In this document: piece by piece, positions 18,664 through 59,220 of the stretch
How positions within the stretch are numbered: position 1 is the first letter of the stretch
Layout: each line of letters opens with the position of its first letter
Assembly: GCA_902780535.1 (NCBI GenBank)
Contig: CACZFT010000017.1
Coordinates: 1 to 64,000, forward strand
Origin: an uncultured Selenomonas sp.
GTDB taxonomy: Bacteria > Bacillota > Negativicutes > Selenomonadales > Selenomonadaceae
Length of the DNA: 64,000 bases
Direction: 5' to 3'
Made by a program: the position numbers and the translations under genes
The notes under the pieces: model-generated
Databases searched by the model: none
What the model saw: the letters and a program-made list of their open reading frames with translations, nothing else
Told to the model about the DNA's origin: nothing

Positions 18664-21285
18664 ATGGTAACCCTCGACCCCAGCGTGCTGCAGAGTGTCG
18701 AAAAGCCCGCACGCTATACGGGCAGTGAATGGAATGTCGTCATCAAGAATCATGCAGATGTCAAATGCACGTTCGCGCTCGCACTGCCGGACGTCTACGA
18801 GGTCGGCATGAGCAACCTCGGCCTCGCCATCCTCTACGAAATCCTGAACAGCCGCCCCGACATCGCGGCCGAACGCGTCTATGCGCCTTGGACGGACATG
18901 GAAGATATCATGCGGTCGCAGGGCATCCCGCTCTATTCGCTCGAAACGAAGACGGAAATCAAGAACTTCTCGTTCCTTGGCTTCTCGCTGCAGTACGAGA
19001 TGATTTATTCGAACGTGCTCAACATGCTCGACCTCGCTGGCATCCCACTCCATGCGGCTGACCGCACGATGGACGACCCGTTCGTCGTCGGCGGCGGGCC
19101 GTGCGTTTACAACGTCGAGCCGGTCGCGCCGTTCTTCGATTTCTTCGTCATCGGCGAGGGCGAAGAGGTCATCACGGAAATCTGCGACGTCTACGAGGCG
19201 TGGAAAGCAGACGGCTGCCCGGACGGGCGCCGCGGGTATCTCCGCCGCCTGCTCGATGTCGATGGCATCTACGTGCCGTCGTTCTACGAAGACCGCTATG
19301 ATGATGACGGCCATTTCTCCGCGCTCGCACCGCTCGACGCTGCCGCGAAGCCCGTCATTTACAAGCGCGTCGTCAAAGACATGGATAACGTCAAATCCGT
19401 CGAGCATCCCGTCGTGCCGTACATGAACATCGTGCACAACCGCATCATGCTCGAGCTTTTCCGCGGCTGTTCGCGCGGCTGCCGCTTCTGTCAGGCCGGC
19501 ATCTGCTACCGTCCGGCGCGCGAGCGCACGGAAGAACACCTGAAAGAGATGGCGCGCGGCCTCGTCGATGTCTCCGGCTATGACGAGATGAGCCTGACAT
19601 CGCTTTCGTCGGCTGATTACTCGTGTCTCGGCCGTCTCGTCGACGATCTCATGGACGAGTTCCGCCACGAAAAAGTCAGCTTCTCGCTGCCATCGCTGCG
19701 CATTGACAGTTTCAGCATCGACCTCGCGCACAAGATGCAGCAGGTGCGCAAATCCGGCCTGACATTCGCGCCCGAGGCCGGCACGCAGCGCCTGCGCGAC
19801 GTCATCAACAAGGGCGTCACGGAGGAAGATCTGCTGACGGCCTGCGGCGCGGCGTTCCGCCAGGGCTGGAAGCAGGTCAAGCTCTATTTCATGATGGGCC
19901 TGCCGACCGAGACGGACGAAGACGTCATCGGCATCGCTGACCTCGCGAAGAAAGTCGTCGACCTCTATACAGAAATCAAGGGAAAGCGCGGCGTCAAGGT
20001 CACGATTTCCGTTGCCTGCTTCGTGCCGAAGCCCTACACGCCGTTCCAGTGGTTCGGCCAGGTGCCGCTTGCGGAGTTCGAGCGCCGCCAGCAGCTCCTC
20101 AAGGAGCACATCACCGACCGCGCGATCACGTTCAACTATCACGACGCGCGGCTCTCCGTCATCGAAGGCGCATTCGCGCGCGGCGACCGCCGCCTCGCGC
20201 GCGTGCTCGAGCAGGCATGGCATGACGGCGCGAAGTTCGATGGCTGGAGCGACCTCTTCCACGATGAAATCTGGCACGAGGCATTCCATAAATGCGGCCT
20301 CGACATCAAAGACTATGCTGAGCGCACACGGAGCTTCGATGAGCCGCTGCCCTGGGAAATCACGTCGCCGGGCGCGAGCAAGGATTTCTTCCTGCGCGAA
20401 TGGAAGAAGGCGATGGCGGCCGAACTCACGGAAGACTGCCGCCGCGGCAAGTGCAGTGCTTGCGGCATCTGCCCGACGCTCGGCGTCCATGTCATCGACT
20501 ACAAGAAGCAGGAAGAGGCGAGGGGCGAGTTCCAGGAGAAATTCGTGCCCCAGCCTGTGCGCCCCGAAGACAACGGCAAGAAACAGCAGCCGCCCGTTTT
20601 CTGGTACCGCGCCCGCGTCACGAAGGATGCTGACGTGCGGTTTCTCTCGCATCTTGAGTACGCCGATGCCTTCCTGCGCGCGTTCGACCGCGCGAAGCTG
20701 CCGATGGCATATTCCGAAGGCTTCAATCCGCACATGAAGGTCGCGTTCGGCTCGGCGCTCGCCGTCGGCGTTTCGAGCGAGGCCGAGTACATGGACTTCG
20801 CCTTGCGCAAAGAGCTCGCGCAGCCCGAGGTCTTCGACCGCCTGCGCGCGCAGCTGCCGCCCGGCATCCGCGTGCTGAAACTCACAGAAATCAAGGGCAG
20901 GCATATCGCGCTGATGAACCTCGCTGACGAGGCGCGCTATCACGTCCGCGTGCCGCTTCATGGCGATACGGAAAAAGCCGCCAGGGCTGCGCAGGAAGCC
21001 ATCGCGAAATTCAATGCGGCGACGGAAGTCATCTACACGCGCGTCACGCCGAAGAAGACCCGCACGAAGGACATCAAGAAATTCCTCGGCGCCCCGCTCA
21101 CGGCGTCCATCGAAGGCGGTACTCTCGCGATGGACATCGCGACAAAAATCCTCGGCACGACCGGCAGCGTCAAGCCCGGCGAAATCCTCGAGACGCTCGC
21201 AAAAGAGTTCGCCCTGCCCATCACCGTCGCCGAAGCCGACATCCATCGTATCGCACTCCTTGGGAAAGGAAAGGACCTGATATGA
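18664..21285 (+). CDS. Radical SAM protein fused to DUF2344 domain
   Basis: 873 residues. The N-terminal part has a B12-binding-like fold (LALPDVYEVGMSNLGLAILY; FVVGGGPCVYNVEPVAPFFD) and a radical SAM core with the 4Fe-4S motif CSRGCRFC near residue 270 (the spacing is the standard CxxxCxxC). A second cysteine group (RRGKCSACGICPT) lies near residue 595. The C-terminal ~230 residues (VRFLSHLEYADAFLRAF; MAYSEGFNPHMKVAFG) match the DUF2344 type. The protein is widespread upstream of rng in Firmicutes but its substrate is not established; a tRNA/rRNA modification role is only a guess from context. It overlaps rng by 4 nt (ATGA). Confidence 0.9.
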   Translation: MVTLDPSVLQSVEKPARYTGSEWNVVIKNHADVKCTFALALPDVYEVGMSNLGLAILYEILNSRPDIAAERVYAPWTDMEDIMRSQGIPLYSLETKTEIKNFSFLGFSLQYEMIYSNVLNMLDLAGIPLHAADRTMDDPFVVGGGPCVYNVEPVAPFFDFFVIGEGEEVITEICDVYEAWKADGCPDGRRGYLRRLLDVDGIYVPSFYEDRYDDDGHFSALAPLDAAAKPVIYKRVVKDMDNVKSVEHPVVPYMNIVHNRIMLELFRGCSRGCRFCQAGICYRPARERTEEHLKEMARGLVDVSGYDEMSLTSLSSADYSCLGRLVDDLMDEFRHEKVSFSLPSLRIDSFSIDLAHKMQQVRKSGLTFAPEAGTQRLRDVINKGVTEEDLLTACGAAFRQGWKQVKLYFMMGLPTETDEDVIGIADLAKKVVDLYTEIKGKRGVKVTISVACFVPKPYTPFQWFGQVPLAEFERRQQLLKEHITDRAITFNYHDARLSVIEGAFARGDRRLARVLEQAWHDGAKFDGWSDLFHDEIWHEAFHKCGLDIKDYAERTRSFDEPLPWEITSPGASKDFFLREWKKAMAAELTEDCRRGKCSACGICPTLGVHVIDYKKQEEARGEFQEKFVPQPVRPEDNGKKQQPPVFWYRARVTKDADVRFLSHLEYADAFLRAFDRAKLPMAYSEGFNPHMKVAFGSALAVGVSSEAEYMDFALRKELAQPEVFDRLRAQLPPGIRVLKLTEIKGRHIALMNLADEARYHVRVPLHGDTEKAARAAQEAIAKFNAATEVIYTRVTPKKTRTKDIKKFLGAPLTASIEGGTLAMDIATKILGTTGSVKPGEILETLAKEFALPITVAEADIHRIALLGKGKDLI

Positions 21286-22730
21286 AGTCCATCCTCCTAA
21301 ACATCGTCCCCGAAGAAACCCGCATGGCCGTCGTCGAGGACGGCGACCTCCTCGCCGTCGAAGTCGAGCGCGCCTCGCATGCCCACCTCGTCGGCAACAT
21401 CTACAAGGGCCGCGTGCAGAACGTCCTGCCGGGCATGCAGGCCGCCTTCGTCGACATCGGGCAGGAGAAGAATGCCTTTCTCTATGTCGGCGACGGTGCG
21501 CCGCACGACATCCCGAAAGGCGTTGCCAAAGACGCGAAGCCCCAGAAAATCCACGTCGGCCAGAACCTGCCCGTCGGCATCATCAAGGACGCCGTCGGTA
21601 CGAAGGGGCCGCGCGCGACGCTCCATCTCTCCCTGCCGGGCCGCAACCTTGTGCTCATGCCAACGGCCGCCTACACGGGCCTCTCGCGGCGCATCGAGGA
21701 CGAGCAGGAGCGTAGCCGCCTCCATGCGCTCGCCGAAAAATACGCGCCCGAAGGCATGGGCCTCATCGTGCGCACGGCGGCCGAAGGCATTTCGGAAGAA
21801 GCGTTCGCCGAGGACGCGCATTATCTCGAAAACCTCTGGGCGTCGATCGCGCGCAAGTTCAAGCTCAGCCATGCGCCAGCGCTCCTTTACCGCGATGCCG
21901 ACCTCCTGGTGCGCATCGTGCGCGACCGCTTCGGCGCCGATGTCGACGAGCTCATCGTCGATGACCGCGAGGCCTATGAGCGCGTGCGCGAACTCGTCGG
22001 ATTCCTCTCGCCCGACCTCGCCGCGCGCGTTAAGCTCTACGACGGCCGCGAGCCGCTGTTCCAGCGGTATCATATCGAGCAGGAAATCGAAAACGTCGGC
22101 GCGCGGCAGGTCGAGCTCAAGTCGGGCGGCTTCCTCGTCATCGACAAGACGGAGGCGCTGACGGTCATCGACGTCAACACCGGCAAATACGTCGGCAAGA
22201 CGAATCTCGGCGACACCGTCTATCAGGCGAACCTCGAAGCGGCGGCCGAAATCCTCAAGCAGATTCGTCTGCGAGACATCGGCGGCATCATCATCGTCGA
22301 CTTCATCGATATGGAGACGGACGAGCAGAAAGCCGCGCTTCTGGATTTCCTGCGCGATGGCGCACGGAATGATCGTGCGAAGACGAACATCATCGATATC
22401 ACATCGCTCGGTCTCGTCGAAATCACGCGCAGGAAGTCGCGCTCGAACTTCGAGAGCGTCGTCTACAGCGAGTGTCCCGTCTGCCACGGCCGCGGCCGCA
22501 TCGAGTCGCCCGAGACCGTCTCCATCCGCATCAGCCGCGACATTCGCCGCATGGAGCACAAGAATCATGCAAAGAACGGCTATGAAATCGAAGTCCACGA
22601 AACCGTGGCCGAAGAGCTGCGCCAGAACCAGCTCATGATGAACCTCGCAGCGGAATTCGGCACCGACATCAAAGTCGTCACCCGCCCCGGCATCCATCCG
22701 GAGACATATACGATTCTGCAGCAAAGCTGA
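21282..22730 (+). CDS. rng: Ribonuclease G (Rne/Rng family)
   Basis: 482 residues. Endoribonuclease for rRNA processing and mRNA turnover. The N-terminal S1 domain (NIYKGRVQNVLPGMQAAFVDIGQEKNAF read as separate blocks) is followed by the RNase H-like/DNase I-like core, catalytic Asp in TVIDVNTGKYVG and IIIVDFIDMETDEQK, and the Zn-link CPVCHGRGRIESPE. No long RNase E-type C-terminal scaffold, so this is the short RNase G form. It is coupled to the radical SAM gene; the usual following genes rplU-rpmA are absent and a palindromic repeat element lies downstream instead. Confidence 0.95.
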   Translation: MKSILLNIVPEETRMAVVEDGDLLAVEVERASHAHLVGNIYKGRVQNVLPGMQAAFVDIGQEKNAFLYVGDGAPHDIPKGVAKDAKPQKIHVGQNLPVGIIKDAVGTKGPRATLHLSLPGRNLVLMPTAAYTGLSRRIEDEQERSRLHALAEKYAPEGMGLIVRTAAEGISEEAFAEDAHYLENLWASIARKFKLSHAPALLYRDADLLVRIVRDRFGADVDELIVDDREAYERVRELVGFLSPDLAARVKLYDGREPLFQRYHIEQEIENVGARQVELKSGGFLVIDKTEALTVIDVNTGKYVGKTNLGDTVYQANLEAAAEILKQIRLRDIGGIIIVDFIDMETDEQKAALLDFLRDGARNDRAKTNIIDITSLGLVEITRRKSRSNFESVVYSECPVCHGRGRIESPETVSIRISRDIRRMEHKNHAKNGYEIEVHETVAEELRQNQLMMNLAAEFGTDIKVVTRPGIHPETYTILQQS

Positions 22731-22741
22731 ACGGTATATTA

Positions 22742-22918
22742 GCCTCCCTCTAGAGGGAGGGGGACCGCGAAGCGGTGGAAGGAGTAGTAAGATGCTGAAG
22801 CCGAACGAGTATGCTGTCGTTGCCAAAGTCCTTTAGCAACATGACGCATGCTTGTTTGACTCCAGCACCCAACTCTCCCCCAGTCAGCTTCGCTGACAGC
22901 CCCCTCAGAGAGGGGGCC
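22742..22918. repeat. Palindromic MITE/REP-like element, copy R1 (full length)
   Basis: About 177 nt forming one long imperfect palindrome. Left end: CCTCCCTCTAGAGGGAGG hairpin, then ACCGC-GAA-GCGGT. Centre: GTTGC...GCAAC hairpin. Right end: GTCAGC-TTC-GCTGAC, then CCCCTC...GAGGGG. Left and right halves are inverted counterparts. It is closely similar to R3 along the whole length. No ORF is seen inside, so it must move or spread in trans, if at all. Confidence 0.88.
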
Positions 22919-22951
22919 AGAGGATTGTCGATATGTTGCGCGTTAGAACTC

Positions 22952-22980
22952 TTGTGTATTTCTATCAGAAATGCTAGGAT
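22952..22980 (+). promoter_or_regulatory. Promoter of L,D-transpeptidase gene
   Basis: TTGTGT, 17-nt spacer, TAGGAT with an upstream TGC (extended -10). Lies about 60 nt before the start codon. Confidence 0.55.
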
Positions 22981-23039
22981 AACAAAGGATTCATTCATTT
23001 TCATCATTTCAACTTCTACAGAGAAAAGAGTCTTTCACC

Positions 23040-24278
23040 ATGAACAAACACCATCTCACCGCGGCCATCCTGAGCGCCGCTCTCATCACCACGCCGTTCT
23101 CGGCTGCTTTCGCTGCTGAGCAGGCTGCTCCGGCCACGACGGCTGCCACCACGAGCACGACGACGGCCGCAACGCCAACCGCCGCTCCGGCTGCCACGAC
23201 GCCCGCTGCGACGACGCAGACCACGACGGCAACGACGACGACGACCACCACCACGACCCAGTCCACGACGGCCGAGACGCCGACGGATGATGAGGCCGTG
23301 ATTGACAGCCGCAAGATCAGCATCAACCTCGCAGCCCGCTCGCTCGCCGTCTACGAAGGCCAGAAGCGCATCCGCCTCTATCCCATCGGCCCGGGCAAGG
23401 CTTCGACGCCGACGCCGGTCGGCTATTTCAAAGTCGAGTCGAAAGACCTCAACCCGACGTGGACGGATCCGACGGATCCCGAGTATTCCATCCCGTCGGG
23501 CGACTCGAATCCGCTCGGCTATCGCTGGATGGAAGTCCAGGGCAATTACGGCATCCACGGCACGAACAAACCGGAGTCCATCGGCCACTATGTCTCGAAT
23601 GGCTGCATCCGCATGAATGAGAAGGACGTCGAGGACGTCTTCGACCTCGTCAAAGTCGGCACGCCCATCGAGATTACGTACAACCGCATCGTCGTCGAGA
23701 AAACGCCGGACGACCGTATTGCGTTCTACGTCTATCCAGACGGCTACGGCCGCCAGCCGCTCGATGTCGAAGAAGCGACGAAATGGCTCAAGGGCTATGG
23801 CGTGCAGAACTTCATCAGCGACGAAGACATCGAGAAGAAAATCGAGGCATCGGACGGTGAGCCGACGTACATCGGCAAGGTCTACAACATCACGGTCGAT
23901 GGCAAGAAGCTCCAGAACAAGGCCGTCGATCAGGATGGCATCACGTATCTGCCGGCCATCGACCTCGCAGATGCCGCGGGCGTGAACCTCGGCTGGGACG
24001 AGAAGTCCGAAGTCCTCTTCAGCACGGTCGGCAAGGCTACGGGCTACAACAAGAAGGACGTGCTCTACTGCAACGCCGATGACGTGCAGACGCTGTTCCA
24101 CCTCGACGGCGGCCTTTCGGGCAAGCAGTATGTCTATCATAAAATGACGACGGCTCCGGCAGCGGCCACGACGACGACGGCAGCAACGACGACGACGGAA
24201 ACGCCGGCAGCTGCGACGACGGCCACGGCTGCTCCCGCAACGACGGCTGCGGCAACGTCTGCACCTGCCACGAAATAA
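23040..24278 (+). CDS. L,D-transpeptidase (YkuD domain), secreted
   Basis: 412 residues. Signal peptide at residues 1-25 (AALITTPFSAAFAAEQ). Then a Thr/Ala-rich low-complexity stretch at about 30-80, including an eight-threonine run. The YkuD domain follows (about 88-225) with the catalytic HGTN and SNGCIRM motifs, the Cys being the nucleophile. A domain resembling a copper-amine-oxidase-type repeat (YNITVDGKKLQNKAV; GITYLPAIDLADAAG) follows at about 280-350, and a second Thr/Ala-rich tail ends the protein. The enzyme makes 3-3 cross-links in peptidoglycan or attaches proteins to it. The flanking ACG/GCG-rich DNA tracts are simple-sequence and could expand or contract. Confidence 0.93.
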   Translation: MNKHHLTAAILSAALITTPFSAAFAAEQAAPATTAATTSTTTAATPTAAPAATTPAATTQTTTATTTTTTTTTQSTTAETPTDDEAVIDSRKISINLAARSLAVYEGQKRIRLYPIGPGKASTPTPVGYFKVESKDLNPTWTDPTDPEYSIPSGDSNPLGYRWMEVQGNYGIHGTNKPESIGHYVSNGCIRMNEKDVEDVFDLVKVGTPIEITYNRIVVEKTPDDRIAFYVYPDGYGRQPLDVEEATKWLKGYGVQNFISDEDIEKKIEASDGEPTYIGKVYNITVDGKKLQNKAVDQDGITYLPAIDLADAAGVNLGWDEKSEVLFSTVGKATGYNKKDVLYCNADDVQTLFHLDGGLSGKQYVYHKMTTAPAAATTTTAATTTTETPAAATTATAAPATTAAATSAPATK

Positions 24279-24312
24279 TCTGTAACCATTTGGAAAAGCA
24301 GGAGGGAATCCC

Positions 24313-26864
24313 TTGAAAAAGCGTTTCGTCATCCTCGACGGCAGCAGTCTCTTCTTCCGGGCATTCTTCGCCCTGCCGCCGCTCACGTCTCCGACGGGCG
24401 AATACACGAATGCCATCTTCGGCTTCGCGAACATGTTCCTGAAGCTCTGGGAAGAGCTGAAGCCGGACGAGCTCGTCATCGCATTTGACAAGAGCCGCCA
24501 TACGTTCCGTACGGAGCTTTATCCCGAGTACAAAGGCACGCGCGACAAGACGCCGGACGAGCTCAAGAGCCAGATCCCTCTGCTGGAGGAATTTTCTGCG
24601 ACGCTCGGTGTGACATTTCTCGAAAAGGACAACTACGAAGCCGACGACATCATCGGCACGCTTGCGACGCAGGCGGCAGCCGCAGGCTATGACGCGAGCG
24701 TCGTCACGGGTGACCGCGATGCGCTCCAGCTCGTGCGGCCAGGTCTTCGCGTGCTCATGACGAAGAAGGGCATTTCCGACCTCAAGGAATACGACGAGGC
24801 GGCGTTCACGGAAGAATACCAGATGGAGCCCATAAAGCTCATCGACCTCAAGGGTCTCATGGGCGACACGGCCGACAACATCCCGGGCGTCCCGGGCGTT
24901 GGGCCGAAGACGGCGACGAAGCTTCTTCTGGAATACGGCACGCTCGAAAACGTCCTCGACCACGCGGGCGAGGTCAAAGGCAAGAAGCTTCAGGAGCGCC
25001 TGACGACGTTTGCCGAGCAGGCAAGGCTCTCAAAGACGCTGGCCACCATCAACTGCAGCGTGCCAGACCTCGATGCGCCGGGCGCTTACGGCGTCCACCC
25101 CGACACCGCGAAATTCACGACATTCTGCCAGCGCTACAACCTCAAAGCCGTGCTGACGCGCGGCAAGAAATTGCTGGCAAAGCTGGCAGCTGCGGAAAAA
25201 GGCGGTGCGCTGACGCTTTCTGCCGATGGCGGGACGAAAACCACGCCTGCAAAAACAGGCAAGGGCACGAAGAAAGCCGCATCCGATGCGCCAGCGATGC
25301 CCGACCTTTCCAAAATCGATGTCGTCACGCCGGACGGCCATATCGTTTTCGACTGGAAAGCCTGCCTCCATGCAGGTCTGTCCTTCGATGATGGCAAGCA
25401 TGTCGATGACCTCAAGCTCATGGCATACCTGCTGCATCCCGAGGCGACGGAATACACGATTCCTGCGCTTCTCGCGGAATTCTTCCCCGAAGAAGTACAG
25501 CCAGAAACCGGTCTTCTGCCTCCCTCTCTGGGGGATAAGCAGACGCAAGGCGCTTCAGCGCCTATGCGGTCGCTTATGCCTTGGCAGGGGGACCGCGAAG
25601 CGGTGGTGGGTGCCGTTCGCGCTGCCTACGAGCGCCTTCAGCCGCTGATGCGCTCGCAGCTTGACGCGCTCGGCCTCACGAAGCTCTACGAGGACATCGA
25701 GCTGCCGCTCGTGCCCGTGCTTTTCGAGATGGAGCAGACCGGCGTCTTTGTGAACCGCGACCACCTCGCGGAAAAAGCCGAGGTCATCGGCGACCGCATC
25801 AAGGGGCTCGAAGACGACATCTACACGCTTGCGGGCAAGACGTTCAAAATCAATTCGCCGAAACAGCTCGGCGCTGTGCTGTTTGAAGACCTCGGCCTGC
25901 CGCCCGTCAAGAAAACGAAGACGGGCTACTCGACGAATGCCGAAGTCCTCGAGACGCTCCGATATCAGCACCCGATTATCGAGTGCATCCTGTCGTACCG
26001 TCTCTGGACGAAGCTCAAATCGACGTATCTCGACGGCATCGCGGCGCTCATTCATCCCGAGACGGGCCGCGTCCACACGAGCTTCAACCAGACCGTCACG
26101 GCGACGGGCCGCCTCTCAAGCTCCGACCCGAATCTCCAGAACATCCCCGTGCGCACGGAGCAGGGCAAGGAAATCCGCGCTCTGTTCGAGCCGGGAGAGG
26201 GCTACGACGCCATGCTCTCGGCTGACTACTCGCAGATTGAGCTGCGCCTGCTCGCGCACATGTCGCAGGATGAAAATTTCATCGAGGCATTTCGCGAGGG
26301 GCAGGACATCCACGCGCGCACGGCCGCCGAAGTCTTCCACGTCCCCATTGACGAGGTCACGAGCGAGGAACGCCGCCGCGCGAAAGCCGTGAATTTCGGT
26401 ATCGTCTACGGCATCAGCGACTACGGCCTTTCGCGCGACCTTCACATCTCGCGCAAGGAAGCGGCAGGCTACATCGACGAATACTTCGCTCGCTATCCGG
26501 GCGTCAAATCGTTCATGGATAAGGTTGTTGAGGAAGCGCATCAGACAGGCGCCGTCACGACGATGTACGGCCGCCGCCGCGAGCTCCCCGCCATCCATAG
26601 CAAGAACTTCAACCAACGCTCGCTCGCCGAGCGCATGGCGTCATCAAAATTGCCATGATCCGCGCATCGCGCATGCTCAAGGAAGCAAACGTCAAGAGCC
26701 GCATCCTGCTTCAGGTTCACGACGAACTCGTGCTCGAAGTGGTGAACGAAGAAATCCCGAAAGTCACGGAGATTCTCAAAGAAGCGATGGAGCACGCAGC
26801 AGAATTGTCCGTCCCGCTCGTGATTGACGTCAATGTAGGGAAGAACTGGGCGGAGGCGAAATAG
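24313..26864 (+). pseudogene. polA: DNA polymerase I (polA), frame broken near C-terminus; carries in-frame repeat
   Basis: TTG start at 24313 after AGGAGGGA. The 5'-3' exonuclease domain (FVILDGSSLFFRAFFALPPL; TGDRDALQL; GVPGVGPKTATKLL) spans residues 1 to about 260. The middle domain is short and lacks a recognisable proofreading DxE motif. A 93-nt palindromic repeat is read in frame at about residues 403-433. The polymerase domain has SADYSQIELRLLAH (motif A) and RRRAKAVNFGIVYG (motif B). At 26638-26641 the frame is lost: after LAERMA the expected MNTPIQGSAAD-type block is missing, by estimate 34 nt. The C-terminal part with motif C (LLQVHDELVLEV) continues in another frame to 26864. Otherwise the gene looks functional, so an assembly artefact is possible. 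Confidence 0.9.
25518..25610. repeat. Palindromic element copy R2, in frame inside polA
   Basis: 93 nt, exactly 31 codons. It carries the left-end hairpins of the family (CCTCCCTCTCTGGGGG; ACCGC-GAA-GCGGT) but a different core, GATAAGCAGACGCAAGGCGC and its inverted partner, which is shared with R5. Translation gives PPSLGDKQTQGASAPMRSLM and PWQGDREAVVG, joined without interrupting the polA frame. It lies in the middle domain, before the LYEDIELPLVPVL helix. Confidence 0.85.
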
Positions 26865-26890
26865 GTCGCGAAGATCGGCTGCAAACTCCA

Positions 26891-27067
26891 GCCTCCCTCT
26901 AGAGGGAGGGGGACCGCGAAGCGGTGGTGGGAGTAGTAGGATGCAGTAGCCGAACGAGCATACTGTCGTTGCTAAAGTCCTTTCGCAACGTTCGGGATGC
27001 TTGTTTGTCTCCAGCATCCAACTACTCCCCCAGTCAGCTTCGCTGACAGCCCCCTCTAGAGGGGGCC
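26891..27067. repeat. Palindromic MITE/REP-like element, copy R3 (full length)
   Basis: 177 nt, same length and layout as R1: CCTCCCTCTAGAGGGAGG, ACCGC-GAA-GCGGT, central GTTGC...GCAAC, GTCAGC-TTC-GCTGAC, CCCCCTCTAGAGGGGG. Differences from R1 are scattered single bases. It fills most of the polA-coaE gap; the rest of that gap shows only the coaE ribosome-binding region. Confidence 0.88.
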
Positions 27068-27153
27068 TGCCTATTAACTTCATGACATTGAGAGTGTGTC
27101 GGAGGTAGGAACTTGGCAATTTTATCGAACGCAATCTGCGAAGGGGATAGCGT

Positions 27154-27831
27154 ATGAAAATCATCGGCCTCACCGGCGGCATCGCCTGCGGCAAATCCAC
27201 CGTTTCCAATATCTTCAAATCCCTCGGCGCGAAAATCCTCGACGCCGACGCTATGGCGCATGAGCTCATGCAGCCGAAGCAGCCGCTCTGGAACCTCTAT
27301 GTCTCTCATTGGGGCGAAAGCATCCTGAAGCAGCCGGGCGGCACGCTCGACCGCCGCGCCATCGGGGCGATTGTTTTCAATGACCTCGCTGAGCGCCAGT
27401 GGCTCGACAGCGCCGCCCATCCCGTCCTCCTCGCCGAGGCGCAGCGCCGTCTCGCGGCTCTTGAAAAGCGGCATACAGAAGTTGCGGTACTTGATGTACC
27501 GCTTCTTTTTGAGTCTGGATGGGATCGCCTCGCCGATGAAATCTGGGTCACCTCCGTCTCCGAGGACGTCCAGCTGCAGCGCCTCATGGCGCGCAACGGC
27601 TGGACAGAGTCCGAAGCCCGTGCCCGCATCGCCGCCCAGATGCCCCTCGCCGAAAAGCGCGCCCGCGCCGACGTCATCATCGACAACAGCGGCCCGCTCG
27701 ACAACCTCCGCCAGCAGGTTTTGCAGGCGTATCAAAACTTGAAGCAGGACATATCCATCGGAACGGAGCCCCAGAGTCTGCAGCCCCCCTCATTGAGGGG
27801 GGACGGGCCGCGTGAGCGGCGGGGGGAGTAG
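27154..27831 (+). CDS. coaE: Dephospho-CoA kinase
   Basis: 225 residues. Last step of coenzyme A synthesis, phosphorylating the 3'-OH of dephospho-CoA. The P-loop IGLTGGIACGKSTVSN is at the N-terminus, then LDADAMAHELM, and VLDVPLLFESGWD of the substrate lid. The canonical protein ends near residue 205 (VLQAYQNLKQD). The last ~18 residues (QPPSLRGDGPRERRGE) and the TAG stop are encoded by palindromic repeat R4, so the original C-terminus was replaced or extended by the element. Start ATG 27154 follows GAAGGGGATAGC. Confidence 0.95.
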   Translation: MKIIGLTGGIACGKSTVSNIFKSLGAKILDADAMAHELMQPKQPLWNLYVSHWGESILKQPGGTLDRRAIGAIVFNDLAERQWLDSAAHPVLLAEAQRRLAALEKRHTEVAVLDVPLLFESGWDRLADEIWVTSVSEDVQLQRLMARNGWTESEARARIAAQMPLAEKRARADVIIDNSGPLDNLRQQVLQAYQNLKQDISIGTEPQSLQPPSLRGDGPRERRGE

Positions 27832-27835
27832 TAGG
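27781..27835. repeat. Palindromic element, half copy R4, overlapping coaE 3' end
   Basis: Left-half element only: CCCCCCTCATTGAGGGGGG hairpin, then GCCGC-GTGA-GCGGC, then GGGGGGAGTAGTAGG. It encodes the end and stop codon of coaE and may also form the transcript's 3' structure. Confidence 0.8.
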
Positions 27836-27877
27836 GAGCACGTATGAACGAATTTGTACAACCTGTCAGCGGAAAAG

Positions 27878-27901
27878 AGGATTTTCGTCCATGATGTCGA
27901 A
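27878..27901 (+). promoter_or_regulatory. Conserved leader motif, copy A (upstream of pnp)
   Basis: AGGATTTTCGTCC-ATG-ATGTCGAA about 55 nt before pnp. An almost identical block lies at 44261-44285 before another gene. I recognise no named riboswitch or operator in it. Confidence 0.4.
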
Positions 27902-27955
27902 TGAAATCAAAGGAAAATAAACGATAATAGAGCGAATAAATTGGAGGAACCCATC

Positions 27956-30025
27956 ATGGAAACCTTTGAAATGGAAGTGGGCGGACGAAAGCTCATCATC
28001 GAGCACGGCAAGATGGCGAAGCAGGCGAACGGCGCCGTGCTCGTGCGTTATGGCGATACGGTCGTGCTCGTGACGGCCACGGCATCGAAGGAACCGCGCG
28101 AAGGCGTCGATTTCTTTCCGCTGACCGTCGATTACGAGGAAAAGATGTATGCGGCGGGCAAGATTCCGGGCGGCTTCATCAAGCGCGAGGGACGCCCATC
28201 GAGCGACGCGACGCTCTGCGCGCGCCTCATCGACCGACCGATCCGTCCGCTGTTTCCGAAAGGGTTCCGCAACGACGTGCAGATCGTCGCGACCGTGCTT
28301 TCTGTCGAGCAGGACAACGCGCCGGAAATCGCGGCCATGATTGGCGCGAGCACGGCGCTCTCCGTTTCCGACATCCCGTTCGAGGGGCCGATTGCAGGCG
28401 TGCGTGTCGGCCGCGTCGATGATGAATTCGTCGTCAACCCGACGGAGGCGCAGCGCGCCGTTTCTACGCTGAATCTCACGGTCGCGGGCTCACACGATGC
28501 CGTCATGATGGTCGAGGCCGGCGCGAACGAGCTCCCCGAGGACGTCATCCTCGACGCCATCCTCTTCGGCCACAAGGAAATCCAGCGCATCGTCGAGTTT
28601 GAAGAGGAAATCCAGCGCGCCTGCGGCAAGGAGAAGATGGAAGCTCATCTCTTCACCGTGCCTGACGACCTCGCGGCCGCTATCGATGATTATGCGCGCG
28701 AGCGCCTTGACCAGGCGACGCGTAATCCCGACAAGCTCGACCGCGACGCGCATATCGGCGCGATTGCAGCCGATGTGACCGAGCATTTCCTGCCGGACTA
28801 TCCCGACATGGAAAAGGAAATCGCCATGGCGTTCCACGACCTCGAGAAAGCCGTTGTCCGCCACATGATCACGCATGAAAAAATCCGCCCGGACGGCCGC
28901 GGCGTCGAGGAAGTCCGCCCGATTTCCTGCGAGGTGGGGCTCTTGCCGCGCACGCATGGCTCGGCGCTCTTCACGCGCGGCCAGACGCAGGTGCTGACCG
29001 TCACGACGCTCGGCCCGCTCGGTGACGAGCAGGTCATTGACGGCCTTGGCCCCGAGACGACGAAGCATTACATCCATCACTACAACTTCCCTGGCTACTG
29101 CGTCGGCGAGGCGCGCCCGATGCGCAGCCCTGGCCGCCGCGAAATCGGCCACGGCGCTCTCGCCGAGCGCGCGCTCGTGCCGGTCGTGCCGTCCATCGAA
29201 GAATTTCCGTACACCGTGCGCCTCGTTTCCGAAGTCCTCGAATCGAATGGTTCGAGCTCGCAGGCGTCCGTCTGCGGCAGCACGCTCTCGCTCATGAATG
29301 CAGGCGTGCCAATCAAGCGCCCGGTTTCCGGCGTCGCGATGGGCCTCGTCAAAGAAGGGGACAAGTACACGATTCTCACAGACATCCAGGGGATGGAGGA
29401 CGCGCTTGGCGACATGGACTTCAAGGTCGCAGGCACGAGCGAGGGCATCACGGCGATCCAGATGGACATCAAGGTCGACGGCCTCTCGCGTGACATCCTC
29501 TCGTCGGCACTCCAGCAGGCGAAGCGCGGCCGCGCGTTCATCCTCGGCAAGATGCTCGAATGCATCTCCGAGCCTGCAAAGGAGCTTTCGCCCTACGCGC
29601 CGCGCGTCGAGACCGTCACGATCAAGACGGACAAGATTCGCGACGTCATCGGTACGGGCGGCAAGGTCGTGCGCGGCATCATCGATGCGACGGGCGTCGA
29701 CATCGACATCCACGAGGACGGCAACATCTTCATCACCTCGAACGATGCCGAGGGCATGGCGAAAGCGAAGCAGATGATCAACGACATCGTCCGCGAGGTC
29801 GAGGTCGGCGAAGTCTTCACAGGCACGGTTACGCGCATCCTCAAGTTCGGTGCGTTCGTCCAGATCCTGCCGAACAAGGAAGGCCTCTGCCACATCTCGC
29901 AGCTCGCGAAGCACCGCGTCGAGAAAGTCGAGGACGTCGTGAAAGTCGGCGACCAGCTGACGGTCAAAGTCGTCGAAATCGACGACAAAGGACGCATCAA
30001 CCTTTCGCATAAGGCGACGCTCTGA
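27956..30025 (+). CDS. pnp: Polyribonucleotide nucleotidyltransferase (PNPase)
   Basis: 689 residues. Phosphorolytic 3'-5' exoribonuclease of mRNA turnover. Two RNase PH-like domains ([40 protein letters not shown]) flank a helical linker. The second carries the catalytic [19 protein letters not shown] block. C-terminal KH domain ([18 protein letters not shown]) and S1 domain ([20 protein letters not shown]) are complete. Start is ATG 27956, eight nt after GGAGG, rather than the TTG at 27941. rpsO, the usual upstream neighbour, is not present; coaE and a repeat precede it. Confidence 0.98.
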
Positions 30026-30054
30026 CAGAGGAAAGCGGAAAGAGGCGCAGCAGC

Positions 30055-30597
30055 ATGATGACGTTTCTCGGATTGATTGCAGCCCTTGTCGTCATCGGGG
30101 CCGTGCTTGCCATCGGCCATCATCCGACGCAGGAGCGGCCCGCCGCGCCCGAGCCTGCGGTGCCATCCATTTCGAAAGCGCGGCAGGCCGCGCAGGCGGC
30201 TGGGGCGCCGCAGACAGCGGCCGAACGGGCATCGATCGCCGAGACGCAGCGCCAGCTCGCCGAGCAGCGCAGTCATGATACGAAGATGGCGGCGGCCGCC
30301 GGTGTTGCCGGCGTCGTGGCAGGAGCTGCGCTCATGCATCATCACGACGCGTCTGCGACGCAGGTGCATATCGACGCCACGAACGCCGCGCAGCAGAATA
30401 CCTTCGTGCGGAACGTCAGCTACGGCGATGATTTTGCCGATGACGCCTATGACGATGGTTATAACGACGGCTATAACGATGGTTATGACGATGCCATGGA
30501 AGATGCTGACGATGACGGCTACGACGATGGCTATGATGATTATGATGACAACGGATTTGACGACGGCGGCGATGATTTCGACGATTTCGACGTCTGA
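30055..30597 (+). CDS. Small membrane-anchored protein with Asp/Tyr-rich tail
   Basis: 180 residues, family not recognised. N-terminal hydrophobic segment (FLGLIAALVVIGAVLAIG) is a TM anchor or signal. Next come a Pro/Ala-rich region, a Gln-rich helix (AETQRQLAEQR), then a short hydrophobic segment (AAAAGVAGVVAGAALM) and MHHHDA. The last ~55 residues are extremely acidic: repeats of DDGYNDGYNDGYDD type ending in DDFDDFDV. Such a tail could bind cations such as Ca2+ or be intrinsically disordered. It lies 29 nt after pnp. The repeat-bearing DNA could slip. Confidence 0.7.
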   Translation: MMTFLGLIAALVVIGAVLAIGHHPTQERPAAPEPAVPSISKARQAAQAAGAPQTAAERASIAETQRQLAEQRSHDTKMAAAAGVAGVVAGAALMHHHDASATQVHIDATNAAQQNTFVRNVSYGDDFADDAYDDGYNDGYNDGYDDAMEDADDDGYDDGYDDYDDNGFDDGGDDFDDFDV

Positions 30598-30625
30598 GTC
30601 CGATTGATTTTTAGGAGGTTCTATT

Positions 30626-31177
30626 TTGGCAGATCGGTATTATCGTTTGAAAGTAGCTGGCGTGACGCGCGAGCTGCCCATCCTCAATGTGACAGATACG
30701 CTCGCGATTGCGGGCTTCGTCATGCTCGGCGACGTCGAGCTCGTCGAGAATTGCGCGAAAGAGATTGCAAAGAAAGTGCCGCGCGAGACCGAGATCATCC
30801 TGACGGCCGAGACGAAGGGCATTCCCTTCGCTGCCGCGCTCGCGCAGGTGCTCGGCCAGAAGCGCTACGTCGTCGCGCGCAAGTCCGTCAAAGCGTATAT
30901 GGAGCACCCCATCTGGGTCAAAGACGTCTCCATCACGACGGAAGGCGAGCAGAAGCTCTGCCTCGACGGCCCTGACATCGAGCGCATCAAGGGACACAAC
31001 GTCCTGCTGCTCGACGACGTCATCAGCACGGGCGGCTCCATCGCCGCCCTCCGCGCCCTCTGCGAACAGGCCGGCGGCCGTGTCATCGGCCAGGCAGCCG
31101 CCCTCGCCGAAGGCGGCGCAGCGGAACGCGAAGACATCATCTACCTCGAAAAGCTGCCGCTTTTTGACGCGCAGTGA
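30626..31177 (+). CDS. Purine phosphoribosyltransferase (APRT/XPRT-like)
   Basis: 183 residues. Transfers phosphoribose from PRPP to a purine base in salvage. The PRPP-binding motif HNVLLLDDVISTGGSIAAL is near residue 125, with the LTAETKGIPFAAALAQVLG and YVVARKSVKAYM stretches usual in adenine or xanthine phosphoribosyltransferases. The exact base is undecided. Start is TTG 30626, after AGGAGG. It may share a transcript with pnp and the acidic protein. Confidence 0.9.
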   Translation: MADRYYRLKVAGVTRELPILNVTDTLAIAGFVMLGDVELVENCAKEIAKKVPRETEIILTAETKGIPFAAALAQVLGQKRYVVARKSVKAYMEHPIWVKDVSITTEGEQKLCLDGPDIERIKGHNVLLLDDVISTGGSIAALRALCEQAGGRVIGQAAALAEGGAAEREDIIYLEKLPLFDAQ

Positions 31178-31194
31178 GATCGGGGCACATATGC

Positions 31195-31223
31195 TTGCGA
31201 GGAGAACCCCTTCATGATATTAT
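31195..31223 (+). promoter_or_regulatory. Promoter of the glycan operon
   Basis: TTGCGA, 17-nt spacer, TATTAT (with TATAAG overlapping). Located about 32 nt before the first glycosyltransferase start; from here on genes overlap or lie very close until 41574, fitting one long operon. Confidence 0.6.
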
Positions 31224-31254
31224 AAGAGAAAGTATCAGCAGATGGGGGATTCTC

Positions 31255-32826
31255 ATGGAAAAAATCGCAATCATCTATACAGAAGCGCAGGGCGTGTCAG
31301 AGAACCTGCGCTCTCTTTCTATCCTGCAGGGGATGGAGGCGCAGTACATCCCCCTTCCAGCAAAAGAAAGCGGCCATCTCCTCGCGGCGTATCAGTCCGC
31401 GATGACATCGTCGGATGCACGTTACAAGATTTATGTGAATGGCAGCGTCCGCATCCTCGATTCCGAAATCCTGGGCAGGATCGTCCGGGTCTTCCAGTCA
31501 CATCCGGACATCGGCATTCTCGGCCTTTCTGGTGCACGCGAGCTCTCGACGAGCGGCGTGAGCTATCTGTCGCAAAAGCGCGCGGGACGCCTCGTCAAGC
31601 CAGATGGGAAGGAACTCGTCTTTTCAAAACAGGAAACAAGTGCCCCCCCGTACGAGACAGTCGAGGCACTTGACGGCTGCTTCCTTGCAACGCAGCATGA
31701 CGTCCCCTGGCGCAGCGACCTGCTGCACGGCCCGCTCTACCTCGGCGCTTCTGCGAGCTGCGAGCATCGCCGTGCTGGCTTTGAAGCAGCTGTGCTCGCG
31801 CAAGAGAAAGCGGCCTGTCAGCTCGTCGACAACCATTTTTCGAGCGACGATGACGATAAAGATGCCTTCCTCGATGAATATTCGGGGGAGCTCTATCCGC
31901 TTGTCAGCATCTGTATCCCAACCTATCAGCGGCCAGAGTATTTCCGTCAGGCGCTCGAGAGCGTGCTGCATCAGACGTATCGGAACCTCGATATCTTCAT
32001 CACGGACGACAGCCCCGATGATGAGACGGAGCGGCTGATGGAGAACTATACGTCAGATTTGCGCATCGCATACCATCATCATCCGGAGTATGGGAAAAAA
32101 GAGAATTGGAGAGATATCTTCGCCTATAACAATCCCAAGGCGGAGTATGTCGGATGGCTGATGGATGACGATTTGTTCTTACCAGAAAAGATTGCGACCA
32201 TGGTTGAAACGTATCGAAACCACCCGAATGTTTCTCTGGTCACATCGTATCGTCATCTGATTGACAAAGACGGGAAGCAGCTGCCGGATTATGAAATCAC
32301 GAAGCAGATAGTACAGGAAAATACTATCTTTCCTGGTGCGTATATTGGCAAGATGATGCTCAGGGGGCTTGGTAATTAGATCGGCGAGCCGTCGACGACG
32401 CTGATGTGCAAGAAGTATATCAAGAATCAGCAGTACCGCTGGACAGATATCGATTTTGCATACGATATCGTCGACGTCCCTATCTGGTTGAACCTGCTGT
32501 CGCAGGGAGACTTGTATTACTGTGCGGAGCCGCTGAGCTGCTTCCGCGTGCATGGAGGAAGCGATCAGGCGCAGTTTTCCACATTGGTCGGCGGCACGAT
32601 CTGCTGGGCGACGATGGTCGAGAAAGCATGGCGGGAGAAGTGCTTCCTCGAAACGGAAGAAGATTATGAGGAAGCGCTTCGGAGCATTCTGCGCATGGGG
32701 CTGCCATTCTTTCAGCGGGAGGAATATCCGACCATCTCCTGGAAGGAACGCGGCGATTTCGAAGACGTCATGGGCCGGGCGTTCCTTGGCTTATCAAAAA
32801 TTTCAGCGAAGAAAGACGAGGCATGA
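31255..32826 (+). pseudogene. Two-domain glycosyltransferase GT-a, interrupted by in-frame amber codon
   Basis: 524-codon frame, the same length as the paralogue at 36653. N-terminal ~200 residues (KIAIIYTEAQGVSENLRSL; EALDGCFLATQHDVPWRSDLL) resemble the StrF-like 'Glyco_tranf_2_5' domain. The C-terminal part is a GT2 glycosyltransferase (LVSICIPTYQRPEYFRQALE; FITDDSPDD; GWLMDDDLF with the DxD-like acidic motif). TAG at 32377-32379 (codon 375) replaces the tyrosine in the NYIGEPS motif kept in the paralogues. The frame continues unchanged after it, so the lesion is one base. A C7 run lies at 31643-31649. First gene of the glycan operon; acceptor sugar unknown. Confidence 0.85.
31643..31649 (+). 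repeat. C7 homopolymer in glycosyltransferase GT-a
   Basis: Seven consecutive C inside the coding sequence (Ala-Pro-Pro), possible slippage site. Confidence 0.6.
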
Positions 32827-53556: not shown

Positions 53557-53669
53557 TCATGCTTGTGAGACAGCCTTGCGGCATAAGCGAACGCATAGGC
53601 GTTGGAACGCCTTGCGCCTGCTTATCCTTCAGTCAGCTTCGCTGACAGCTCCCTCTGAGAGGGAGCCTT
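53557..53669. repeat. Palindromic element copy R5
   Basis: Starts with the arm ATGCTTGTGAGACAG, then the core GCATAAGCGAACGCATAGGC with inverted partner GCGCCTGCTTAT, which is shared with R2. It ends with GTCAGC-TTC-GCTGAC and the CTCCCTCTGAGAGGGAG hairpin. No ORF. Confidence 0.82.
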
Positions 53670-59132: not shown

Positions 59133-59137
59133 TGAAA

Positions 59138-59220
59138 GCCCCCCTCATTGAGGGGGAGGGCCACGAAGTGGCAGGGGGAGTAGTCGGGTGCTGGATACAG
59201 ACAAGCATGCCATCGTTATG
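59138..59220. repeat. Palindromic element, half copy R6
   Basis: CCCCCCTCATTGAGGGGG, then GCCAC-GAA-GTGGC, then GGGGGAGTAGTCGGGTGCTG and an ACAAGCATGCCATCG arm matching the core arm of R1/R3. The right half is missing. It sits directly after the carboxypeptidase stop codon and may terminate its transcript. Confidence 0.78.

Follow-up and report, generated by a model that had tools for sequence, protein, structure and literature searches.

How did a palindromic repeat come to be read as part of DNA polymerase I, and is it one repeat or several? In the window, by which we mean the whole 64,000-nucleotide stretch of DNA from an uncultured Selenomonas sp. that was analysed here, the polA frame starts at the TTG at 24313 and runs without a stop across positions 25518-25610. 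The original prediction took these 93 nt for a single palindromic element sitting in frame in the gene. That a repeat lies there in frame was borne out. It is not a single element: the 31 codons consist of an outer unit of 42 nt, belonging to a family that we call A-B after its two hairpins, and of an inner element of 51 nt, called C, nested in it. The parts of the gene are as follows, where L039, L040, L041 and L050 are the polA loci of genomes G001, G006, G003 and the sister G002, and G000 is the window's own genome.

24313-26864, forward strand: polA, DNA polymerase I, with the 5'-3' exonuclease, exonuclease-like and polymerase domains in Pfam (PF02739, PF01367, PF00476)
25518-25534, forward strand: left part of the outer element, the left arm and loop side of hairpin A (GCCTCCCTCTCTGGGGG); present in L039 and L040 without C, absent in L041
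25535-25585, forward strand: inner element C, 51 nt, hairpin ATAAGC..GCTTAT plus GCCTTGGC; present in the window and L050, absent in L039 and L040
25586-25610, forward strand: right part of the outer element, the rest of hairpin A and hairpin B (GGACCGCGAAGCGGTGG), read GDREAVVG

The C element in polA (ATAAGC...CTTGGC) lies inside hairpin A at GGGGG^AGGGGG and its translation is (D)KQTQGASAPMRSLMPWQ. Compared with shuffled sequences, the 93 nt fold with a z of -3.9 and the inner 55 nt with a z of -4.6; none of 200 shuffles did as well. Used as a query against its own genome, the 93-nt segment gave 44 matches at E<=0.001, covering parts of the segment, and 18 close copies of just the inner part are present there. 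Matches to the middle of the segment stop near query position 91 and those to the right end start at 94. Because of these boundaries, the ends and the middle are assigned to different repeat families. Rfam 15 gave no match above the gathering score in window positions 20000-32000.

Five further repeats of the window had been said to share the end hairpins, and all five were recovered:

22741-22918, forward strand: inverted A-B dimer of about 180 bp, intergenic, 89% identical to the copy at 26880-27075
26890-27068, forward strand: inverted A-B dimer of about 180 bp, intergenic, downstream of polA, fold z -10
27782-27835, forward strand: A-B unit forming the C-terminal tail of coaE (CoaE ORF 27154-27831)
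53580-53667, reverse strand: A-B unit with a C element, intergenic
59137-59191, forward strand: A-B unit with a GGGAGTAGTCGG tail, intergenic, a 99-nt insertion relative to G006

The Pfam domain of CoaE stops at residue 182 of 225, and the A-B unit gives the last residues of the protein (..LQPPSLRGDGPRERRGE). Two other features of the window were noted. Low-complexity, Ala/Thr-rich stretches at 23133-23285 and 24150-24245 form both ends of the protein encoded at 23040-24278. Between 31660 and 38197, blocks of up to 300 nt are repeated with about 67-81% identity, many at a spacing of 2894 nt, and from their sequence these are apparently tandem paralogous genes.

The A-B family was surveyed in about 1.19 Mb of the own genome and 1.0 Mb of G006, taken in stretches. 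These 2.2 Mb hold 217 full-length units, 149 of them distinct. Each consists of two adjacent short hairpins spanning 42-49 nt, starting with (A)GCC, (A)GGC or (A)GCT and ending with GGGAGT or similar, after which the tails differ. The stems vary widely (ACCGC/GCGGT, GTCAGC/GCTGAC, GCCCC/GGGGC and others), with both arms changing together. In at least 40 copies, two inverted A-B units surround a core to give an element of about 180 bp. Their ends amount to terminal inverted repeats like those of MITEs, a trait that does not apply to solo A-B units, and the element is about 75% identical to its own reverse complement over its length. The dimer downstream of polA has 84 matches in its own genome, both strands counted. 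The family is patchy in its distribution, being found in 23 of 100 genomes of the class and, at a stricter cut-off, in 7 of 199 across the phylum. Positions 69514-69558 of NZ_AP023416.1, a replicon of a different bacterium (Vescimonas fastidiosa), are a 91% match to an A-B unit, hinting that the family may extend beyond Negativicutes. In one alignment of A-B units (A2), the tail after hairpin B (GAGGGAGT, GGGGGAGT or AGAGGGT) covaries with the right arm of hairpin A. The left arm could thus possibly pair with either the right arm or the tail, as alternative folding or as guide-like pairing.

The C element is non-coding, 51-59 nt long, and consists of one long hairpin and a short GCC..GGC hairpin. 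Its 17 pairs are formed in 98.6% of cells and its covariation score lies above that of all 500 shuffles. A model of C matched 25 times in the own genome and 35 times in G006. An A-B unit of the same orientation can be recognised around nearly every copy listed for the genus, where C follows hairpin B (GG^AG or similar) or occupies the loop of hairpin A. Beyond the genus, C is found in other contexts as well, for example in the genomes at L296-L300, and its presence is again patchy (23 of 150 genomes of the class). Two further matches are of a different kind. At about 1501-1546 of L302 (G116), a C-like hairpin immediately precedes a 16S rRNA gene at its 5' end (TGGAGAGTTTGATCCTGGCTCAG) and looks like an insertion in the rRNA leader. 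In G090 (C1), matches at 20980, 46728, 72476 and 98224 are spaced by exactly 25748 bases, which is a long tandem repeat or an assembly artefact.

The polA genes of relatives, in genomes that within the genus are drafts and several of them metagenome-assembled, exist in three states. In a protein alignment, the congener L041 and the other Selenomonadaceae aligned (L042-L049) have a gap at these residues. The congeners L039 and L040 carry A-B alone, about half of the insert. Only the window genome and the sister L050, whose contig ends inside the element, have A-B together with C. The edges of the outer unit cannot be fixed exactly, L041 having already diverged there. The gap that an insertion should leave in relatives is hence present, the half insert and the full insert mark steps towards the window's state, and the converse case, in which all relatives share the 31 residues as native sequence, is ruled out by the empty and half-filled genes.

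The original prediction also held the frame to be undisturbed. This is correct across the element. Farther downstream, alignment with L039 and L040 revealed a separate 34-bp deletion in the window polA, between 26640 and 26641, which shifts the frame so that it ends at 26658. The codons for MNTPIQGTAAD in L039 and L040 are missing through this deletion and those downstream are intact. The intact codons suggest that the deletion is either an assembly error or a recent event that cost the polymerase its C-terminus. The deletion and the repeat insert are independent of each other. Being frameshifted 3' of the insert, the window copy could belong to a decaying gene; the intact downstream codons and the full-length polA with the outer insert in L039 and L040 count against decay.

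From the open frame, the insert would be translated as 31 residues. In the AlphaFold model, residues 395-426 have a pLDDT below 50 (about 35), for which a shallow alignment may partly account, and form a coil between helices 383-390 and 426-452. The insert would probably form a floppy loop at the surface and affect PolA little or not at all.

Are other proteins of these genomes extended in the same way? A first list of 51 hits inside ORFs was dropped, these being mostly spurious ORFs in GC-rich DNA, and was replaced by a coding-score test together with comparison of orthologues. By coding score, which includes some false calls, 8 of 100 testable clusters in the own genome and 6 of 126 in G006 fall within a continuous coding frame. 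About 93% of the copies tested lie outside genes. Five coding-score hits were left uncounted (L130, L169, L239, L248 and L121); three of them, L130 and L169/L239, run antisense to other genes or lie just beyond them. The search proposed at the outset, for further ORFs with the translated element, succeeded: comparison with orthologues bore it out for mnmE, the gene of a MocR-type regulator, and those of a TPR protein and a U32 peptidase. In mnmE, an outer unit (A-B') is present in G000, G001 and G003 and absent from G002, G006 and the other family genomes compared; G003 has an additional C that G000 and G001 lack. In the MocR-type regulator, the own genome has the outer unit and G006 has the outer unit, a 54-nt C and a further repeat piece. 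The C junction there is GGGGCGG^AGAGGGTAGCGCC, with flanks near-identical between G006 and the own genome. The regulator was named from its GntR domain in Pfam and from a second half that reads as aminotransferase-like.

The TPR-like protein carries several units in a proline/glutamate-rich linker. Its copy 2 has a 54-nt C in G006, with the junction GGGGGG^AGTCCCC, that is absent in G000 and G002. A U32-type peptidase of G006 has 33 extra residues (a 99-nt insert) at DRIL..PTQEEHD and, at a second site, a dimeric element of about 200 bp in translated frame that is shortened in the own genome. In an ABC exporter of G006, a multiply nested repeat lies in the linker between membrane and ATPase parts. 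The TPR, U32 and ABC exporter names come from reading the sequences rather than from a family search, and the TPR-like protein had no match in Pfam. Repeat-derived C-terminal tails were also noticed in an RNase M5-like gene (L150:6183-6833, reverse strand) and a cation transporter (L151:18773-19858). Length differences other than the recognised in-gene cases, 50 in all, divided 19/15/16 with no triplet bias. Since there is none elsewhere, the multiples of three within genes reflect survival. As the in-gene cases were located through open frames, these multiples are partly a matter of ascertainment, and for this reason triplet bias was rejected as proof of selection.

Altogether, there are four loci where C has gone into the outer element in frame, at or near GG^AG. 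The nested cases share one reading phase of C (DKQT...). Of the three forward phases, one meets a TAA at once (GGA TAA); entry at a fixed site, together with the requirement for an open frame, suffices to explain the shared phase. No target duplication of the kind expected of a MITE was seen at the C junctions in MocR, TPR copy 2 and polA, which fits single-strand transposition or recombination between copies. The boundaries of A-B insertions are too diverged for target duplication to be judged.

We consider it highly probable that the polA segment arose through two successive, frame-preserving acquisitions of palindromic repeats, A-B and then C. An A-B unit of the abundant and mostly intergenic family would have entered, in an ancestor of the species group, the loop that links the exonuclease-like region to the long helix after it. 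C, resident in A-B units at or near GG^AG, would then have entered the polA unit in the lineage of the window genome and its sister. Both steps would have added whole codons without a stop, so that the mRNA would be read through and PolA would gain 31 residues. More generally, short hairpin DNA, mobile or formerly so, would land mostly between genes, and genic copies would survive if they bring whole codons and no stop and sit in a loop or linker. The elements may still be moving, and the proteins would seem to tolerate them with no benefit. Tentatively, with somewhat less than an even chance of being right, we propose that C is a strand-specific hairpin element preying on A-B units, which it would enter at or near GG^AG with no duplication of the target, so that genes bearing A-B would be preset for in-frame growth by 17-18 residues in one phase (DKQTxxAxAPxxRL).

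What might move C is a separate matter, and one in which homologous recombination has to be weighed. The polA bases flanking C differ from those of L039 and L040: the left arm is CCTCCCTC where these have CCTCCCCC, and the right is GGTGGGTG where they have GGAGAGGG. The flanking bases of the window resemble those of other copies, for example L261 in G001. As the adjoining bases have also changed, C in polA may have come by gene conversion from another C-bearing copy. It could be supposed that C spreads among A-B copies by gene conversion alone, the polA copy having been overwritten, and the lack of a Y1 transposase (PF01797) in G006, with its 35 C matches, and in G002, genomes that are element-rich or have filled sites, agrees with this. 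However, the flanks in MocR and TPR copy 2 are nearly unchanged up to the junctions, and in other families of the class C is surrounded by outer sequence of quite another kind, which requires that it be able to enter new sites; we think conversion alone unlikely, if well worth keeping in mind. A Y1/RAYT transposase was rejected as the motor: PF01797 occurs once in G000, with no A-B motif or complete C around it, and no transposase tied to the elements was found. The exact C pattern occurs in none of the viral contigs, and a search for plasmid spread gave one weak 42-nt match, in Vescimonas.

Three other readings concern the insert itself. That its 31 residues are native PolA sequence lost in relatives, with a secondary likeness to repeats, has the open frame in its favour and nothing beyond; dozens of repeats in the genome have nearly the same DNA, the residues are missing in the other Selenomonadaceae aligned, and the alignments refute a reading that can scarcely be credited. 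A repeat-caused assembly artefact might be suspected from the sister contig ending in the element and from the odd deletion in the window polA, but the identical 51-nt C with the same junctions in two assemblies, and the outer unit at the same place in two others, make this very improbable. Could the insert have been co-opted and kept for changing PolA, for example by lowering its fidelity or speed, as earlier speculation had it for repair proteins decorated with REPs? Its A-B part is retained in four species, and the presence of REPs in DNA polymerase I and in Uvr and Rec proteins has been argued to be unlikely to be fortuitous (PMC3733652). Yet the insert sequence drifts between species, unrelated proteins are hit (a tRNA modification GTPase, a transporter, a peptidase, a TPR linker), and the polA insert lies in a predicted disordered loop. 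Co-option is accordingly improbable, and we retain the two successive insertions as the preferred account.

The general phenomenon is already reported in other bacteria, including REP insertions in DNA polymerase I (PMC3733652, PMC2229807). Rickettsia palindromic elements (RPEs) and Wolbachia repeats lie in frame in conserved genes, are translated and are presumably tolerated (PMC2229807; PMC10969869). The likeness to RPEs drawn at the outset holds for behaviour and not for membership. As with RPEs, insertion is in frame and the frame is intact on both sides, in polA, mnmE, MocR, TPR and U32 peptidase genes. Whereas RPEs are long stem-loops of 105-146 bp, the units here are 42-51 nt with two hairpins (up to dimers of about 200 bp), and both A-B (42-49 nt) and C (51-59 nt) fall short of that length and shape. 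Nearly half of the RPEs were inside ORFs in the first report, in contrast to the large extragenic share found here, and the in-frame nesting of one family in another is unlike RPEs. By analogy, the elements would work like RPEs, but size and shape set them apart and we do not file them as members.

REPs are mainly extragenic, and DNA polymerase I and repair proteins are among those that they occasionally decorate (PMC3733652, whose main text does not mention Firmicutes). They carry a GTAG/CGTC tag, whereas A-B and C have no such tag (C starts with ATAAGC) and no RAYT tied to them. The pneumococcal BOX, RUP and SPRITE repeats insert into one another and have mostly disrupted genes (PMC3049150), but the nested genic copies here keep the frame at several loci. 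In enterobacteria, ORFs of RU-1 (ERIC), RU-2 and RU-3 are fused in frame to protein genes (PMC2759123); those repeats differ from ours in length, structure and phylum. IS1397, IS621 and others are insertion sequences with a strict preference for short palindromic repeats as targets (PMC1525189), in contrast to the non-coding hairpin C. For other prokaryotes, a 2024 review calls the route of in-frame palindromic insertion conceivable (PMC10969869). The view that such insertion was undescribed for Negativicutes agrees with the literature searched, which gave no report of it, nor any of repeated in-frame nesting, although this does not prove their absence.

In-frame palindromic insertion, best documented in Rickettsia, is now seen in core genes of rumen Negativicutes, where close relatives with empty, half-filled and filled states allow the order of events to be read. 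PolA, MnmE, MocR and the U32 peptidase provide natural protein pairs for neutrality tests. The presence of repeat-derived segments in gene annotations and protein family models of this group is also a warning. If C preys on A-B units, protein expansion would be stepwise and partly predictable. The suggestion that the elements, if the case is general, supply peptide segments to housekeeping proteins is upheld by several such genes in relatives, to whose proteins small mobile repeats apparently keep adding peptide loops.
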